Positions 19,199 to 64,000 of a stretch of DNA of 64,000 nucleotides are shown piece after piece; position 1 is the stretch's first letter, and every line of letters begins with the position of its first letter. Below the pieces are notes generated by a model. It searched no databases and was not told the origin of the DNA. It saw only the letters and a program-made list of their open reading frames with translations. Position numbers and translations under genes: made by a program. Origin of the DNA: Gemmatimonadaceae bacterium (lineage in GTDB: Bacteria > Gemmatimonadota > Gemmatimonadetes > Gemmatimonadales > Gemmatimonadaceae); assembly GCA_016742275.1 (NCBI GenBank), contig JACVCD010000006.1:186001-250000 (forward strand). Reading direction: 5' to 3'.

Positions 19199-19241
19199 AA
19201 AAAACGGGAGGTGGCAGAGAATCTGCCGCCTCCCGTTTTTC
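19199..19241 (+). terminator. Strong intrinsic terminator of pilin operon 2
   Basis: AAAAACGGGAGGTGGCAG pairs with CTGCCGCCTCCCGTTTTT with one internal mismatch (A opposite G) around loop AGAAT, ending in a T-run. A-tract on the other side makes it usable from both directions, which suits the convergent thyX gene. Confidence 0.9.
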
Positions 19242-19246
19242 TTAAC

Positions 19247-19302
19247 CCTTTACGCCGTTTCCTTAACGCTGTTCCCCTTACGCCGTTCCCCTTACGCTTC
19301 TC
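19247..19302. repeat. Tandem CCTTACGC array (GCGTAA repeat family, half element)
   Basis: Four consecutive units of 14-15 bases begin CCTTTACGCCG, CCTTAACGCTG, CCTTACGCCG and CCTTACGCTT. They sit between the terminator and the stop of the minus-strand thyX gene at 19308. The same TTACGC/GCGTAA motif forms larger two-sided arrays at 47757-48012 and 61216-61545. Only the TTACGC orientation is present here. Confidence 0.8.
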
Positions 19303-20722: not shown

Positions 20723-20754
20723 GCGTCTCGCTGGATTTGGCGGCGACTGGGCCG

Positions 20755-20914
20755 TTTAACTGCGCACGCAGAGCCGCAGAGGTATTGGAATCACAGAGGG
20801 GGCGAATGGTCGATAGTTTATTTAAATAAATCCTGTGTTCTTTAATAGGAGAGTATTGCGCATTGCCCCCTCTGCGCCTCTCTACTCCTCTGCGGCTTTG
20901 CGTGAGCAGTTAAA
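20755..20914. repeat. 160-bp nested palindrome (CGCAGAG family)
   Basis: Outer arms at 20755-20782 and 20887-20914 (core CTGCGCACGCAGAGCCGCAG) match in reverse complement over 28 bases with two mismatches. Inner arms CAGAGGGGGC (20794-20803) and GCCCCCTCTG (20865-20874) are exact. The centre is AT-rich (TTTATTTAAATAAAT), unlike the rest of the window. Lies between the convergent MarR and oxidase genes. A second copy is at 35265-35366. Confidence 0.85.
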
Positions 20915-20927
20915 AACCAATTCCGAC

Positions 20928-33113: not shown

Positions 33114-33130
33114 ACGGCGGCTCTGAACAA

Positions 33131-33292
33131 CAGTTTTCAGTTGTCAGTGCACAGTACCGAGTTGAAGTAGAGCGGCCCGAATCGAGATATCTCGATTCGG
33201 GCCGCTTCTGCTTTTCACTTGCACTTTCAACTGAACACTGGCAACTGACAACTGCAGTTCTCAGTTGTCAGTGCACAGTCCCGAGTGGAAGT
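33131..33292. repeat. Paired 38-bp direct repeats (CAGTTGTCAGTGCACAGT family)
   Basis: Two 38-base copies, 33131-33168 and 33255-33292, differ at three positions and share TCAGTTGTCAGTGCACAGT. Between them is the palindromic terminator at 33171-33206 and reverse-orientation pieces (CAACTGACAACTG, 33242-33254) that can pair with the second copy. The second copy ends three bases before the stop of lpd. Similar pieces are at 9381-9470 and 55.6 kb. Confidence 0.8.
33171..33206. terminator. Perfect 36-bp palindromic bidirectional terminator
   Basis: AGCGGCCCGAATCGAGAT and its exact complement ATCTCGATTCGGGCCGCT abut without a loop, followed by TCTGCTTTTC on the plus side. Located between the convergent anti-sigma-like and lpd genes, where it can serve both. 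Confidence 0.85.
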
Positions 33293-33294
33293 CC

Positions 33295-46614: not shown

Positions 46615-47757
46615 ATGCGTTTGCTCGTCCTCGGCGCGGGACTGCAAGGTACCGCGTGCGCGTTCGATCTGCTCAATGTGAGTTCCGTCACACATGTCAT
46701 GCTTGCCGATATGCGCGTTGGGCCATTGCCGACGTTTCTCGCGCAGCATGCCGGTCCTCGTCTTGAACAACTGGCACTCGATGTAAGAAATGATGACGCG
46801 GTGCGCGCGGTGTTTGCGCGCTGCGATGCTGTCATGAGTGCCATCCCCTACTACTTCAACGCCAACCTCGCGCGACTTGCTGTCGAAGCCGGCGTGCACT
46901 TCACCGATCTCGGTGGCAACACCGAAATCGTGCAGGAACAGAAGCAGCTCGATGCGGCTGCTCGTGCAAAAGGTGTGAGTGTGGTGCCCGACACCGGACT
47001 TGCGCCCGGTATGGTGAATGTGATCGCGCAACACGGCATCGATCAGTTCGACAGTGTCGAGCAGGTCAAATTGTTCGTTGGTGGACTGCCGCAGGAACCC
47101 GAACCGCCGCTCGGATACCAGATTGCGTATTCGATCGAAGGCATGGTGGACTATTACACCACGACATCGCTGGTCGTGCGTGATGGGCGCCCCGCAGAGG
47201 TGCGCGCATTGTCAGAGCGTGAGACCGTGCGCTTTGGCGGTGACATTGGTGACCTCGAGGCATTTCACACCGCTGGTGGTCTCAGCACCATGGTGTATCG
47301 CTATGCCGGCAAGATTCCGACGATGGAGTACAAGACACTTCGCTATCCCGGTCACGCGCACATCATGGAAGCCATTCGCGAATTGGGGCTGCTCGACACC
47401 ACGCCGGTGGATGTGAAGGGTCAGCAGATCGTGCCGCGCGATGTGTTTGTGAAAGTCGCCGGCGATCATCTGCGCAAAGGCAAGCCGGATCTGGTGGCGT
47501 TGCGGGTGGAAGTGACCGGCAGCAAGAACGGCACGCGTAACACACGTGCGTGGCAGGTGCTCGATTACTACGATCGGGCGCATGGCATTTCCGCCATGAT
47601 GCGCACGACGGGTTACACACTTTCCATTACCGGACAGCTGCAGGCGAGTGGAGCGATTGCGCCGGGAGTGCATACGCCGGATGAATGCATTCCTGCCGAT
47701 CGATACTTTGCGATGTTAGCTGAACGAGGGGTAGTTGTTCAGGAAGTGCAGGTTTGA
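46615..47757 (+). CDS. Saccharopine dehydrogenase family protein (lysine 6-dehydrogenase-like)
   Basis: 380 residues. Rossmann N-terminus LVLGAGLQGTACAFDLL (GxGxxG-type), FTDLGGNTEIVQEQKQLDAAARAKGVSVVPDTGLAPGMVNVIA and a C-terminal catalytic-like region with YPGHAHIMEAIRELGLL. The pattern is that of saccharopine dehydrogenase-like enzymes; closest by eye to L-lysine 6-dehydrogenase and carboxynorspermidine-type members, which oxidise an omega-amino group with NAD(P)+. No lysine operon nearby. After its stop lies the largest two-sided GCGTAA array but one. Confidence 0.85.
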   Translation: MRLLVLGAGLQGTACAFDLLNVSSVTHVMLADMRVGPLPTFLAQHAGPRLEQLALDVRNDDAVRAVFARCDAVMSAIPYYFNANLARLAVEAGVHFTDLGGNTEIVQEQKQLDAAARAKGVSVVPDTGLAPGMVNVIAQHGIDQFDSVEQVKLFVGGLPQEPEPPLGYQIAYSIEGMVDYYTTTSLVVRDGRPAEVRALSERETVRFGGDIGDLEAFHTAGGLSTMVYRYAGKIPTMEYKTLRYPGHAHIMEAIRELGLLDTTPVDVKGQQIVPRDVFVKVAGDHLRKGKPDLVALRVEVTGSKNGTRNTRAWQVLDYYDRAHGISAMMRTTGYTLSITGQLQASGAIAPGVHTPDECIPADRYFAMLAERGVVVQEVQV

Positions 47758-48012
47758 ACTGCGTAAGGGAACGGCGGGCGTAAAGCGACTCCATCGTGAA
47801 GGAGAAGCAAGCGACCGAAGAGCGTAAAGCAACGCCATCGTAAGCTGAGCCGGCGTAAAGGAAAAGCACGCGCCACAGCGCTAACGCCGTCTCGCGTGCT
47901 TCTTCTTTACTGCTGTACCGCTCACGTCGCAGTTCCTTTACGCCTTTCGGTCGCTTACTTCATCTTTACGCCCGCAGTTTCCTTACGCTTGCTGTTTCTT
48001 TACGCCGTTCGA
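47757..48012. repeat. Two-sided GCGTAA/TTACGC array between convergent genes
   Basis: The left part holds GCGTAAGG (47761), GGCGTAAAGC (about 47778), AGCGTAAAGC (47821) and GGCGTAAAGG (about 47852). The right part holds the reverse: CTTTACGCC (about 47936), CTTTACGCC (47965), CCTTACGCTT (about 47981) and CTTTACGCCG (47997-48006). A CGCGTGCTT/AAGCACGCG pairing marks the middle. The last unit contains the TAA stop codon of the chemoreceptor gene on the minus strand. Confidence 0.85.
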
Positions 48013-59554: not shown

Positions 59555-61207
59555 ATGAACCAGACAGGAAGCATGACGCCGCGTACGACGTGCGCGGCGT
59601 GGATTGTTGCGATGGTGTCCTGCGTCACCATGACTGCGGCACCGGGGCATGTGGCTGCAGAGCCCTCGCCAATTCGCCCGTTCGGCGTTACTGCGGCGTC
59701 GCTGGAGTTTCAGGCGAATCGCTCGTCGGCACGCACGCGCAGCAGACCAAAGGCCAGTAGCAAACGCGCCACGCCAACGCGTCGTGCCAAGACGCCGGTG
59801 GTGCCGGTGTTGCGGCACACCACGCCGCGCGGCGCCGAAGCACTCTCCGGTGATCTCGGGGCGCTGCTGTCGAGTCGTACGCGAAACGGCGAGTGGGGCG
59901 CGATGGTGGTCAGCATTACACGCGGTGATACGCTGTTTGCACGCGGTGCCGACAGCAAGCTCGTACCAGCCAGTACGATGAAGTTGTTCACGGCGGCCAT
60001 CGCGCTCGAAAAGTTGGGCCCCGAGCATACGTACAGCACCGATGTGCTGCGTGATGGCACGGTGGATGCCGCTGGTGTCCTCAATGGCAATCTCGTGCTG
60101 CGTGGAGATGGCGATCCGTCGCTGTCCACGCGCTTCGTGCGTGGTGGGCCAGGGGCTGCGATGACATTGCTCGCGCAGTTCACAGCCGGTGCGGGCATCA
60201 AGCGGGTGACGGGCAATCTGGTGGCGGACGCGAGTGCATTTGAATCGCGGCGCATTCCCGAGGGATGGTTGTCGCGCTATGCCGGCGCCGGATACGCAGC
60301 GCCATTCTCGGCGCTGTCGCTCAACGAGAACATCGTGATCGTTGGTGTGACACCTGGTGCATCGGGCGGTGGTGCGCAGGTCTTTCTCGAGCCGGCATCG
60401 ACCGCGCTCACTATCACCAACACGGTCAAGACGGTGGCGGGCGGTGGATCGCGCATCACAGCGCGTCGTGTCGGTGATGACCGCGTTGTTGTTTCCGGCA
60501 CCATTGGTGCGCGTGCCGGTACCGCGCGCTATCAGCTGGTCGTTGGTGATCCGGTCACGTTCACGGCTGGTGCGTTTCGCGCGGCGTTGCTTGGCCAAGG
60601 TGTAATGGTTGACGGCGACATCATTGTGGGTCGCACGCCTGCTGCGGCTACCGTGGTCACTTCACTGCCGTCGCCACCACTGGCGCGCCTGGTGTCGGTG
60701 ATGAATCGCGAGAGCATCAACCTGCTGGCGGAACAGATTTTCCGAAGCGCACCGCGTGGACCGTCGCGTATTGGTGTGGGCAGTGCGGAAACCGCCGGTG
60801 CGACGCTGCATGACTTCCTGGTGAATCAGGTCGGCGTGCCGGCGGATGCGGTGAGTGCCACCGATGGCAGCGGTCTTTCCGTGCTCGATCGTGTGACGCC
60901 GCGCTCGCTAGTCGAGCTACTCGGCCACGCGCATCGTGCGCCGTGGGGCAGCGCGTTCCATGCGTCACTGCCGGTGGCTGGTGAATCGGAATTGCTGCGC
61001 AATCGCATGCGCGCCACCCCGGCGCAGGGCAATCTGCACGCCAAGACGGGCACGACGAACGATGTGATCGGCCTGTCGGGCTATGTCACTGCGGAAAACG
61101 GCGAAATTTTGGCCTTTGCGTTTCTCTATAACGGCAAGGACCGTTGGCATGCGAGAGAGACCATCGATGCGATGGGGCCGACGATGGCGGCGTTCTCGCG
61201 AGACTGA
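59555..61207 (+). CDS. dacB: D-alanyl-D-alanine carboxypeptidase/endopeptidase (DacB type, S13)
   Basis: 550 residues. A signal peptide (AAWIVAMVSCVTMTAAPGHVAAEP) then a basic linker and the penicillin-binding fold with P-A-S-T-M-K-L (SxxK), a conserved domain insertion typical of PBP4/DacB, R-E-S-I-N (SxN) and H-A-K-T-G-T (KTG). It trims or opens peptidoglycan peptide crosslinks in the periplasm. The N-terminal about 95 residues include an Arg/Lys/Ser-rich stretch (RTRSRPKASSKRATPTRRAK) not usual for DacB. The stop is five bases downstream of the NagX-like gene's unit. A big inverted repeat array follows. Confidence 0.92.
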   Translation: MNQTGSMTPRTTCAAWIVAMVSCVTMTAAPGHVAAEPSPIRPFGVTAASLEFQANRSSARTRSRPKASSKRATPTRRAKTPVVPVLRHTTPRGAEALSGDLGALLSSRTRNGEWGAMVVSITRGDTLFARGADSKLVPASTMKLFTAAIALEKLGPEHTYSTDVLRDGTVDAAGVLNGNLVLRGDGDPSLSTRFVRGGPGAAMTLLAQFTAGAGIKRVTGNLVADASAFESRRIPEGWLSRYAGAGYAAPFSALSLNENIVIVGVTPGASGGGAQVFLEPASTALTITNTVKTVAGGGSRITARRVGDDRVVVSGTIGARAGTARYQLVVGDPVTFTAGAFRAALLGQGVMVDGDIIVGRTPAAATVVTSLPSPPLARLVSVMNRESINLLAEQIFRSAPRGPSRIGVGSAETAGATLHDFLVNQVGVPADAVSATDGSGLSVLDRVTPRSLVELLGHAHRAPWGSAFHASLPVAGESELLRNRMRATPAQGNLHAKTGTTNDVIGLSGYVTAENGEILAFAFLYNGKDRWHARETIDAMGPTMAAFSRD

Positions 61208-61215
61208 GGACGACG

Positions 61216-61545
61216 AGAAGCGTAAAGGAACGGCGGGCGTAAGGTTGGACGGCGGGAAGGAACCGCAAACGAACGAAAAGCGTAAACGAACAGTGGGCGT
61301 AAGCTGGAACAGCGTAAAGCAACCGCGAGCGACCGTTACCGCGTAAAGAAAAGGCGTAAGGCTTTGGAGGCGTAAAGTTTCTTTACGCAGTCCGAGCCTC
61401 ACGCCTTTTTCGCTTTACGCCGTATCGGTCGGTTGCTGTTCCTTCCCGCTCCTCAACCTTACGTCCGCCGTTCTTTTACGCTTCACCGGTCGGTTGCGGT
61501 TCCTTCCCGCCACTCAACCTTACGCGTGCCGTTCCTTTACGCTGT
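61216..61545. repeat. 330-bp two-sided GCGTAA/TTACGC array
   Basis: This is the largest copy. Left half: about eight GCGTAA units (AGCGTAAAGGAAC, GGCGTAAGG, AGCGTAAACGAAC, GGCGTAAGCTGG, AGCGTAAAGCAAC, CGCGTAAAG, GGCGTAAGGC, GGCGTAAAG). The axis is GCGTAAAGTTTCTTTACGC near 61370-61388. Right half: about six TTACG units facing the other way. GCGGGAAGGAACCGCAA (61252-61268) and TTGCGGTTCCTTCCCGC (61494-61510) pair exactly over 17 bases, so the halves are true arms. It fills the gap between convergent genes; no gene is seen in it. Confidence 0.9.
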
Positions 61546-61557
61546 TCCAATCAACTC

Positions 61558-64000
61558 TCACTTCTTGCGCGCAGCTCTCGCCGCTCCACTCGGCAACGCT
61601 CCACGTACCAACCGCGCCCCCGGCGCCGGCTCGAGCGAACCGCGTACACCGCCCTCAAGCCGCGCGGATGCCATGAAGGCGGCGCCACTTGTTGCGGTGG
61701 CTACGGTGCTGTTGTAACCCACCGCAAAACCTCCGCCGTTGCCCGCCGGTGCGCCGCTCACGCTCCACAGCATATCCGTGGTGCCGCTCGACATACTGCT
61801 CCACGACGAGCCATTCCAGCGGAGAATGGTGCCCTGATCGCCGGTGGCGTACACATCATTCACCGCAGGGCCCCACACGGAGGTCAACACAGCGCCGGTG
61901 CCGGTGCTCTGCGTCGACCAGCTGCCCGTATAGCCATACGCGATACCACTCGTACCTTGAGTGTTCGCGCCCACGGCCATGGCACCGTTCCCCGTGGCAA
62001 ATACGCCGGCCAGTGTGCCGGTGGTTGGTGCAGACACTGCGCTCCAGCTCGTACCGTTGAAGCGTACGGCGATACCGTTCTCACCCGACGCGAAGACATC
62101 CGATGCGCTGGCGCCATGCACGGACCACAGCGGCTGGGTACTGGTGTACACCACGCTCCACGACGAGCCGTTGTAACGCACCACCTGACCGGCCGACGTC
62201 GTTGCATACACATTGCTGCCCGACGTGCCCCAGAGGCTGTACACATGACCACTGCCTGCGAAGCTCATGCTGCTCCATGACGAGCCATTCCAGCGCAGCA
62301 TGGTGCCATTGTCGCCGCCGGCAAAGGCTTCACTCGCACTCGGTGCCCACACCGTATTGAGAGACGCGGTGGTCGGCGTCGTCTGACGTGACCAACTGCC
62401 GCCATTCCAGCGATACACGGCACCGAACTCACCAACGGCCCACGCATTGTTGGTTGCCGTGGTCCAGACGTCGATCAGGTCTGGCGCGAGATTCAGTGTT
62501 TCCCAGGCACTGCCCGTGTACCGCATCACGCTGCCGCGCTGACCGGTCGTCCAGGCATTGCCGCTGGCGTCCACTCCTGCGGCAAACAATCGCGGCGCAT
62601 ACGGCGTGCTCACGCTGCTCACGGTCGAGCCGTTGAGCTGCATTAGACCGGCGTCGCTGGCGAGATACATGCGACCACCGTTGGCGGAATTGCCAGCCAC
62701 GTCGTAGAAGTCAGACGTCGTGCCGCTGTTCACTGTGCTCCAGGACGAACCGTTCCAGCGCACCACGGCACCCGACGTTCCAACCGCTACCACATTGCTG
62801 GTGGACGAACCCGACACGCCATACAGCGTTTCGTTGGTCGGCGTCGACTGACTCGACCAGCTGGAGCCATTCCACGCCACCACTCCGCCACCTTCTCCGA
62901 CCGCCCAGGCCTGACCGCCAACACTCCAGACATCATTCAGCGACTGATTGATGCCGGTGCTAGTGCTGCTCCACGAAGAACCATTCCAACGGAGCGCGGT
63001 ACCGTTGGCGCCAACCGCGAAACCGGATGTCGTGCTTTCAAGCCACACGGCATTCAGTGTGCGATTGGTGCCGCTCGACATGGTGCTCCAGCCGGAACCG
63101 TTGAATCGCGCAATCACGCCGCCAGTGCCAACCGCCATCACATTGCCGGTGGTGGTGGCGGAGATGCCAAGGAATTGTGTGCTGAATGCACTGCCGCTGG
63201 TAGAGAGAGTCCACGTGCCGCCGCTGTAGCGGTACACATTGCCCAGCGAGTTCACGGCAAACGCGTTGGACGCGTCGATCACCTTGATGGCGATCACGTC
63301 TTCATGCAGTGCACCGCCAAGTCGTGCACTCGACCAGCTGGCTGCCAGACGAGTCGCTGGCGCGCTCACCGCGATGGCCGCAGTCGCAGTCTTGGACGTG
63401 TCGGCGACCGAGCGCACCGTAATCGTGGCATTGCCCTGACCAATGGCGCTGACCATGCCGGAGAAATTCACACTGGCCACACCGGGATTGCTGCTTACGA
63501 AGGTCACGGCCGTGGACAGACTGCCCTGCGCGTTCACCGTCGGCTGCAACTGCACCGACTGTCCGGTGTTGAGCGATGCGGTGCTAGGCGAAACGCTCAC
63601 CGACATCACCTGCGGATTGACGGTGATGGCTGCTGAGGCGCGGCGCGTGGTGTCGGCAACCGACACCGCCGTGATGGAGGCCGATCCGAAACCGGTGGCC
63701 GTCACGACACCACCACTCGAAACAGTGGCGACGCTGGCGTTGCTGGTACGCCAGGTGACTGCCGTGCTCTGACCACCCGAAGCCTGCACCGAGGCCACCA
63801 ATGTGCGCTGATCATTGAGCGCCATGGTCGCACTGCTCGGCGAAACACTGACACCAACCGGCGACAACACGGTGACGGAAGCCGAAGCCCGACGTGTGGT
63901 GTCACCAACCGAAACAGCGGTGATGGTCACACTGCCAGCCGACATGGCGGTCACGAGACCGTTGCTCGACACACTCGCAATCGCCGGCTGGCTCGAGCGC
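61558..64000 (-). CDS. Ig-like (Big_2) and repeat-propeller surface protein, 3' part
   Basis: 814 codons to the window edge; the frame is open beyond 64000, so the N-terminus is missing. The first about 190 residues are bacterial Ig-like (BID_2) repeats with a period near 88, each with VSVSPS and VTITAVSVGDTTRRASA. Residues from about 210 to 790 hold about 13 copies of an approximately 42-45-residue unit with a signature such as RWNGSSWSS, as in YCF48-like or galactose-oxidase-like propellers. The tail ends RAARKK. No LPXTG or autotransporter domain is seen. Probably an exported surface adhesin or carbohydrate-binding protein. The repeated units are alike at DNA level too, so copy number may vary. 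Confidence 0.85.
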   Translation of the reverse strand, partial: RSSQPAIASVSSNGLVTAMSAGSVTITAVSVGDTTRRASASVTVLSPVGVSVSPSSATMALNDQRTLVASVQASGGQSTAVTWRTSNASVATVSSGGVVTATGFGSASITAVSVADTTRRASAAITVNPQVMSVSVSPSTASLNTGQSVQLQPTVNAQGSLSTAVTFVSSNPGVASVNFSGMVSAIGQGNATITVRSVADTSKTATAAIAVSAPATRLAASWSSARLGGALHEDVIAIKVIDASNAFAVNSLGNVYRYSGGTWTLSTSGSAFSTQFLGISATTTGNVMAVGTGGVIARFNGSGWSTMSSGTNRTLNAVWLESTTSGFAVGANGTALRWNGSSWSSTSTGINQSLNDVWSVGGQAWAVGEGGGVVAWNGSSWSSQSTPTNETLYGVSGSSTSNVVAVGTSGAVVRWNGSSWSTVNSGTTSDFYDVAGNSANGGRMYLASDAGLMQLNGSTVSSVSTPYAPRLFAAGVDASGNAWTTGQRGSVMRYTGSAWETLNLAPDLIDVWTTATNNAWAVGEFGAVYRWNGGSWSRQTTPTTASLNTVWAPSASEAFAGGDNGTMLRWNGSSWSSMSFAGSGHVYSLWGTSGSNVYATTSAGQVVRYNGSSWSVVYTSTQPLWSVHGASASDVFASGENGIAVRFNGTSWSAVSAPTTGTLAGVFATGNGAMAVGANTQGTSGIAYGYTGSWSTQSTGTGAVLTSVWGPAVNDVYATGDQGTILRWNGSSWSSMSSGTTDMLWSVSGAPAGNGGGFAVGYNSTVATATSGAAFMASARLEGGVRGSLEPAPGARLVRGALPSGAARAARKK

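Follow-up and report, generated by a model that had tools for sequence, protein, structure and literature searches.

Oriented, converging short repeats in intergenic regions are already known as a kind. Arrays of the heptamers GGGAATC in Xanthomonas and GGGGA(C/T)T in Nostoc are intergenic, occupy conserved genomic positions and are not tied to mobile elements (PMC4692102). The 5' ends of GGGAATC arrays lie 0-50 bp from an ORF, on the coding strand after stop codons and on the non-coding strand before start codons, and 70 converging pairs form inverted repeats in Xcc (PMC4692102). In Beggiatoaceae and some Cyanobacteria and Bacteroidetes, direct repeats of TAACTGA form dispersed intergenic arrays that follow orientation rules and are patchily distributed (PMC4679880). 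For Gemmatimonadota chromosomes, 90- and 150-bp repeats were reported in Gemmatirosa and fewer in Gemmatimonas, as numbers and lengths only (PMC11237797).

We analysed a 64,000-nt stretch of Gemmatimonadaceae DNA (the window), which is located in contig C15 of the host genome G000, a 99.6%-complete draft of 4.57 Mb in 33 contigs. Arrays of a GCGTAA unit in this genome share several properties with the systems above, so the first-pass annotation, which knew of no described family with this design, was too strong on this point, given the converging repeats of Xanthomonas (PMC4692102). As with GGGAATC, the purine-rich 5' end of GCGTAA arrays lies within ~50 nt of a gene boundary, whatever the gene direction (medians 11 and 19 nt), and two-sided arrays converge (><, 13/13). 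Unlike the perfect G-quadruplex heptamers, however, the GCGTAA unit is longer, degenerate, modular and without G-runs, and the family has an ordered half-element, a common core and a species-wide rewording. Like TAACTGA, GCGTAA is a short unit whose arrays are scattered through intergenic regions, obey rules of orientation and occur patchily across species, whereas TAACTGA repeats are mostly direct, end at start codons with one inverted case only, and were proposed to regulate translation (PMC4679880). GCGTAA elements are intergenic palindromic mosaic repeats in the manner of REP/BIME (PMC2817692), but they differ from REP/BIME with RAYT in their fixed rather than alternating >< layout, their much longer stems and the lack of Y1_Tnp. 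Identity with REP/RAYT was rejected, as no Y1_Tnp/RAYT transposase was found in the draft genome in a search whose positive controls worked. Bidirectional intrinsic terminators (PMC1852404, PMC3027695) offer a further likeness, a symmetrical GC-rich hairpin between convergent stops that is purine-rich before and pyrimidine-rich after, but the GCGTAA stem is 120-390 nt long, belongs to a dispersed repeat family and has a weak U-tract or none. What is new here is that the unit is modular and not a heptamer, that the stems are so large, that units are reworded across the genome and that one family replaces another at orthologous gaps.

The convergent gap between the ORF of a PBP4/DacB-type S13 peptidase (stop at 61207) and a Big_2 protein gene on the minus strand (ORF end at 61558) was completely filled by a 350-nt two-sided element (Table 1). 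About eight GCGTAA units, a short axis and about six TTACG units had been proposed for this gap, and exactly eight (starting at 61220, 61237, 61280, 61297, 61312, 61341, 61354 and 61370), an axis of 3 nt and six, five of them TTACGC, were counted. Exact GCGTAA/TTACGC hexamers occurred 13 times, where the rest of the window would predict 0.07 (Poisson P ~2e-25). The arrays, enriched in convergent gaps as described below, are not the chance occurrence that the first-pass annotation had named as an objection. The exact arm it had placed at 61252/61494 was found, but its length is 18 nt (61251-61268/61494-61511) rather than 17, the longest in the element. The left and right arms are 85-88% complementary (I2, I3), and as RNA the gap folded into one stem from end to end (-216.6 kcal/mol, z -19.2 compared with dinucleotide shuffles). 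A simple terminator scan found no canonical U-tract terminator in the element, and the core hairpin was not called.

Table 1 Coordinates of repeat elements and hairpins in the window
Feature	Position	Strand	Context and properties
Two-sided element, whole	61208..61557	.	Complete convergent gap; single unbranched stem
Left arm, 8 GCGTAA units	61220..61377	+	Purine-rich on + strand; from DacB stop codon into gap; inverted pairs I1-I5
Right arm, 6 TTACG units	61381..61543	-	GCGTAA unit family; from stop codon of minus-strand gene into gap
Two head-to-tail 60-nt units, left arm	61213..61332	+	78% alike (D2)
Two head-to-tail 61-nt units, right arm	61414..61535	-	82% alike (D1)
Core hairpin at TTT axis, AAAAGGCGT...ACGCCTTTTT	61338..61425	.	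Fold -47 kcal/mol, z -7
Second two-sided element, >>>><<<<	47758..47999	.	Between saccharopine dehydrogenase gene and MCP gene
Core hairpin GCACGCG...CGCGTGC, flanks AAAGGAAAA / TTCTTCTTT	47866..47899	.	Terminator-like on minus strand
One-sided array, <<<	19248..19296	-	3' UTR of thyX-like (Thy1) gene
Separate bidirectional terminator-like hairpin, AAAAA-stem-TTTTT	19200..19240	.	Inner end of 19248 array; z -9, both strands

Two relatives of this element had been named in the window. At 47757 there is indeed a second copy, with a fold of -132.5 kcal/mol (z -10.9) and a weak minus-strand match at 47865 in the terminator scan. The one at 19247 turned out to be a one-sided array beside a separate hairpin, and this hairpin was missed by the terminator pattern scan. 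All three sites lie between convergent stop codons, as had been stated, according to genes predicted with a hexamer ORF caller made for this analysis rather than taken from published annotation.

These three places belong to a genome-wide family and are not its only sites, as the annotation had considered they might be. Pattern searches, together with 824 kb of genome stretches that cover every array site listed by these searches, catalogued 37 GCGTAA array clusters in G000, of which ~34 are credible intergenic sites and 3-4 are doubtful (two units only, or far from a gene boundary). The family comprises ~160 degenerate units, spread over fewer than 40 sites. The unit, GCGTAARGNNGRAC, spans 14-29 nt with irregular spacing (14, 15, 17, 29 nt) and needs no GGG run. 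Read by eye, the order within a half-element is (GAACT)GCGTAAAGGAACGGCGG, GCGTAAGGTTGGACG, GCGTAAAGGAACAGCAAGCGACCGATACG and then a core near GCACGCGAGAC...GTCTCGCGTGC. The proposed check for clustering at convergent gene ends, run on the 824 kb, was positive, with arrays of any type in 13/64 convergent gaps compared with 21/340 other gaps (odds ratio 3.9, P 8e-4). For two-sided arrays the values were 7/64 and 1/340 (odds ratio 42, P 1e-5).

The arrays have a constant polarity, in which the purine-rich strand begins at the gene boundary and runs inward. As regards a bias with replication direction, both orientations occur within one contig. The outer end was nearer the gene boundary in 44 of the 52 one-sided arrays, both at stop codons (29/32; median outer distance 11 nt, inner 80 nt) and at start codons (15/20; 19 nt and 56 nt), and in several genes the TAA of the first unit is itself the stop codon (outer distance -6). 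All 13 two-sided gaps pooled from G000 and the related genomes G001 and G022 had the layout >>>core<<<, never <<<>>>. The same >< arrangement was observed in 18/18 two-sided gaps of two unrelated families from sister species, GGGANTAGGGA (G007) and GGTCGGGG (G005, G001), plus one gap of <>< form, with eight divergent gaps included. Why short-unit intergenic repeats of unrelated phyla share a polarity pointing away from the gene is a question that can be tested.

Orthologous gaps in related genomes were located via the flanking proteins. Among 13 G001 sites judged by their flanks and unselected for arrays, the family was present at the corresponding boundary in 10, in some cases judged by an array match directly beside the flank match; the two large window sites held another palindrome, and one site, 19248, a plain hairpin only. 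Sidedness and orientation were identical in every occupied orthologous gap read in G000, G001 and G022. All three species had two-sided arrays at sites 10, 22 and 25; at sites 6, 7, 13, 14, 20, 21, 23, 26, 27, 31 and 34 the arrays were one-sided and of the same orientation wherever sequence was available. This constancy ruled out that one-sided arrays are recently decayed halves of two-sided ones. An orthologous two-sided GCGTAA element of G022 (JACVCT010000071.1; L143 1770-2141) has grown to 386 nt and folded as one hairpin at -306 kcal/mol.

At both large window sites, the relatives carry different giant palindromes or hairpins built from unrelated repeats. The gap orthologous to that at 61208 contains GAGGATCAGAGGATCCGGGG... 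in G001, ATTAGGGACTAGGGA... in G007, GTAGGGAGCAGGGAG in G018 and CAGCGATGCTT repeats in G023. At the gap orthologous to 47757, a GTGGGCTGTGGG palindrome was found in G001 and G022 and a short simple hairpin in G009, and the genes are almost gapless in G023. In orthologous convergent gaps, related species thus use GCGTAA, GAGGATC, GGGATTAG or other repeats, and the hairpin shape seems to persist while its sequence is swapped between them. Converging repeat arms around a core would then be a gap-filling architecture that outlives its own sequence.

Comparison of the units revealed a concerted genome-wide change from GCGGGAAG to GCGTAAAG. In the arrays of G000, 46 modules at 21 sites read GCGTAAAG[AGC][AG]AC and 11 read GCGGGAAG...; the module read GCGGGAAG 20 times in G001 and 19 times in G022, and GCGTAAAG in neither. 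The ratio of GCGTAAAG to GCGTAAGG units was 99:47 in G000, 1:66 in G001 and 1:46 in G022. Point mutation acting site by site is unlikely to be the sole cause; for so many unlinked sites to change alike, either sequence would have to pass from one site to another or a trans-acting recogniser would have to be involved. What makes the wording of dozens of dispersed arrays shift in unison within a genome can be tested.

The family has a narrow range. The module GCGGGAAGGAACNGC was present in at least nine copies only in G000, G001 and G022 among 395 genomes of the phylum, with three or fewer in all others. When a single genome of each GTDB species was scanned, a set from which the nearest records to the host genome may be missing, repeated matches were found only in the Gemmatimonadaceae bin JACVCT01. 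No Rfam family matched above the gathering score in 124 kb that included several elements, and a literature text search returned no paper with both Gemmatimonas and GCGTAA. Plasmid, phage and viral collections contained no GCGTAA-family match, and an origin from such elements was rejected on this basis. As for the unrelated families, high density of GGGANTAGGGA was confined to G007 and G018; GGTCGGGG is dense in G005, G001, G022, G017, G008 and G015 and absent from G000. In the sister species G005 (L268, G005:C15:1-16000), convergent gaps of 430-490 nt are full of GGTCGGGG, with folds of ~-343 kcal/mol.

The pairing between arms was stronger within elements than between them. Six of the eight two-sided G000 elements fold as a single hairpin, and exchanging arms among the eight gave a mean of -0.70 compared with -0.88 kcal/mol per nt arm for an element's own arms (P 0.002). 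Alignment also showed arm co-fit (P 0.003), an effect coming mostly from two of the eight elements, 61208 and G000:C7:107091. The median fold z of convergent gaps was -8.5 with arrays and -5.8 without; codirectional one-sided arrays had a median z of -0.45 and did not fold beyond chance. Array-free convergent gaps fold nearly as strongly, so a hairpin can form without arrays; codirectional arrays do not, so selection for hairpins does not act on the units at every site. Both observations indicate that the hairpin is general to convergent gaps and that arrays are one way to build it. Among 20 other strong convergent hairpins of G000, the 5' half was the purine-richer in 17.

On this evidence we give roughly even chances to the reading that a clade-specific palindromic repeat family serves as a bidirectional transcription-end hairpin in convergent gaps. 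An array would start beside a gene boundary with its purine-rich strand 5' and extend into the gap, and where two arrays face each other across the GC-rich core, both transcripts would end in one symmetrical giant hairpin. With its 5' arm rich in purines and its 3' arm rich in C/U, it would fit a symmetrical terminator, acting as a transcription end in both directions and as a barrier to antisense read-through. A bidirectional terminator or 3'-end hairpin, as suggested initially, is still the best functional guess, although the lack of a canonical U-tract at 61208 by scan argues against it, and the >< polarity of other families in divergent gaps argues against a role in transcripts only. Since the 60-mers are duplicated and the stem is in register, we infer that the arms grow by duplication of units and are kept in register by foldback-templated (quasi-palindrome) repair, by selection for pairing or by both; growth by unit slippage, as proposed earlier, is consistent with the 60/61-nt direct duplications in each arm. 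Rho might in addition load on read-through RNA from either direction, which we offer as an idea only. A full rho gene lies on C29 of G000, and another Rho-like gene, whose 446 bits fall short of the curated cut-off, lies just outside the window at G000:C15:183425-184489. Rut-like composition was no more frequent in array gaps than in other convergent gaps (6/10 and 13/26), and enrichment of Rho-rut sites was rejected.

The gaps might instead simply tolerate a selfish or neutral repeat that has no host function, either a non-autonomous palindromic element of MITE/BIME type or a slippage-prone satellite. We think this unlikely but worth serious weight, as the family is limited to three related genomes, its units duplicate in tandem, relatives have different families in the same gaps, and host genes do without the array at some sites, such as 8 and 17, where the G001/G022 gaps are 47-59 nt long and array-free. 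A repeat of this kind is harder to reconcile with the conservation of most positions between diverged species (10 of the 13 unselected G001 sites), of sidedness and of orientation, with a genome that has no Y1/RAYT transposase, and with the absence of plasmid, phage or viral copies. Nor was a target-site duplication evident where empty and occupied orthologous gaps were compared, the flanks being too diverged to score one. That the arrays lie in mRNA as REP-like 3'-protecting stabilisers or protein sites, rather than terminators, is very unlikely: although many of them, such as that at 19248, follow a stop codon and precede a terminator hairpin, and the TAA of the first unit is the stop codon in several genes, 20 of the 52 one-sided arrays are antisense at a start codon, which is not a 3' UTR.

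The rewording bears on two further explanations. An abundant DNA-binding protein, involved in nucleoid or chromosome organisation or recognising an uptake-type word, might co-evolve in specificity with its binding array and so create species dialects at fixed sites. The change from GCGGGAAG to GCGTAAAG at 21 G000 sites with none in G001/G022, the shifted GCGTAAAG:GCGTAAGG ratios (99:47 against 1:66 and 1:46) and the oriented sites at conserved positions would all follow. We nevertheless regard such an array as improbable, because unit spacing is irregular, other repeats replace GCGTAA at the same site and no candidate protein was identified. Uptake sequences (DUS/USS) are short, nearly identical words that usually occur hundreds to thousands of times and often form terminator pairs; the GCGTAA family, with ~160 degenerate units on fewer than 40 sites, falls far below this. 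There is also a slim chance that a general DNA-level process, for example one that adds templated sequence to broken ends and then fuses them head to head, writes short purine-rich repeats at gene boundaries pointing inward and rewrites all copies to one dialect, so that the architecture would be inherited while the sequence is replaced. If true, it would account for unrelated families sharing one polarity at the same gaps, divergent ones included.

Further palindromes of other repeats were also observed in convergent gaps of the window. A giant one, GCTGTGGGCT...AGCCCACAGC, is located at 991-1202 (RNA fold z -19.9), one of CGCAGAG/CTCTGCG repeats at 20723-20927 (z -10.5) and one of CAACTGA-type repeats at 33114-33294 (z -10.7), and AGTTTTCAGT occurred in eight gaps of the sampled genome. 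The CACGGATGACACGGA family formed three convergent-gap palindromes in the same genome (L136 737-889, L136 12290-12408 and L067 13077-13248). In G060, from another family of the order, a palindrome of AGCGTAAGCGGTGAGCGGG separates a stop codon from a tRNA (L072 1400-1545), possibly a distant dialect or a convergent look-alike.
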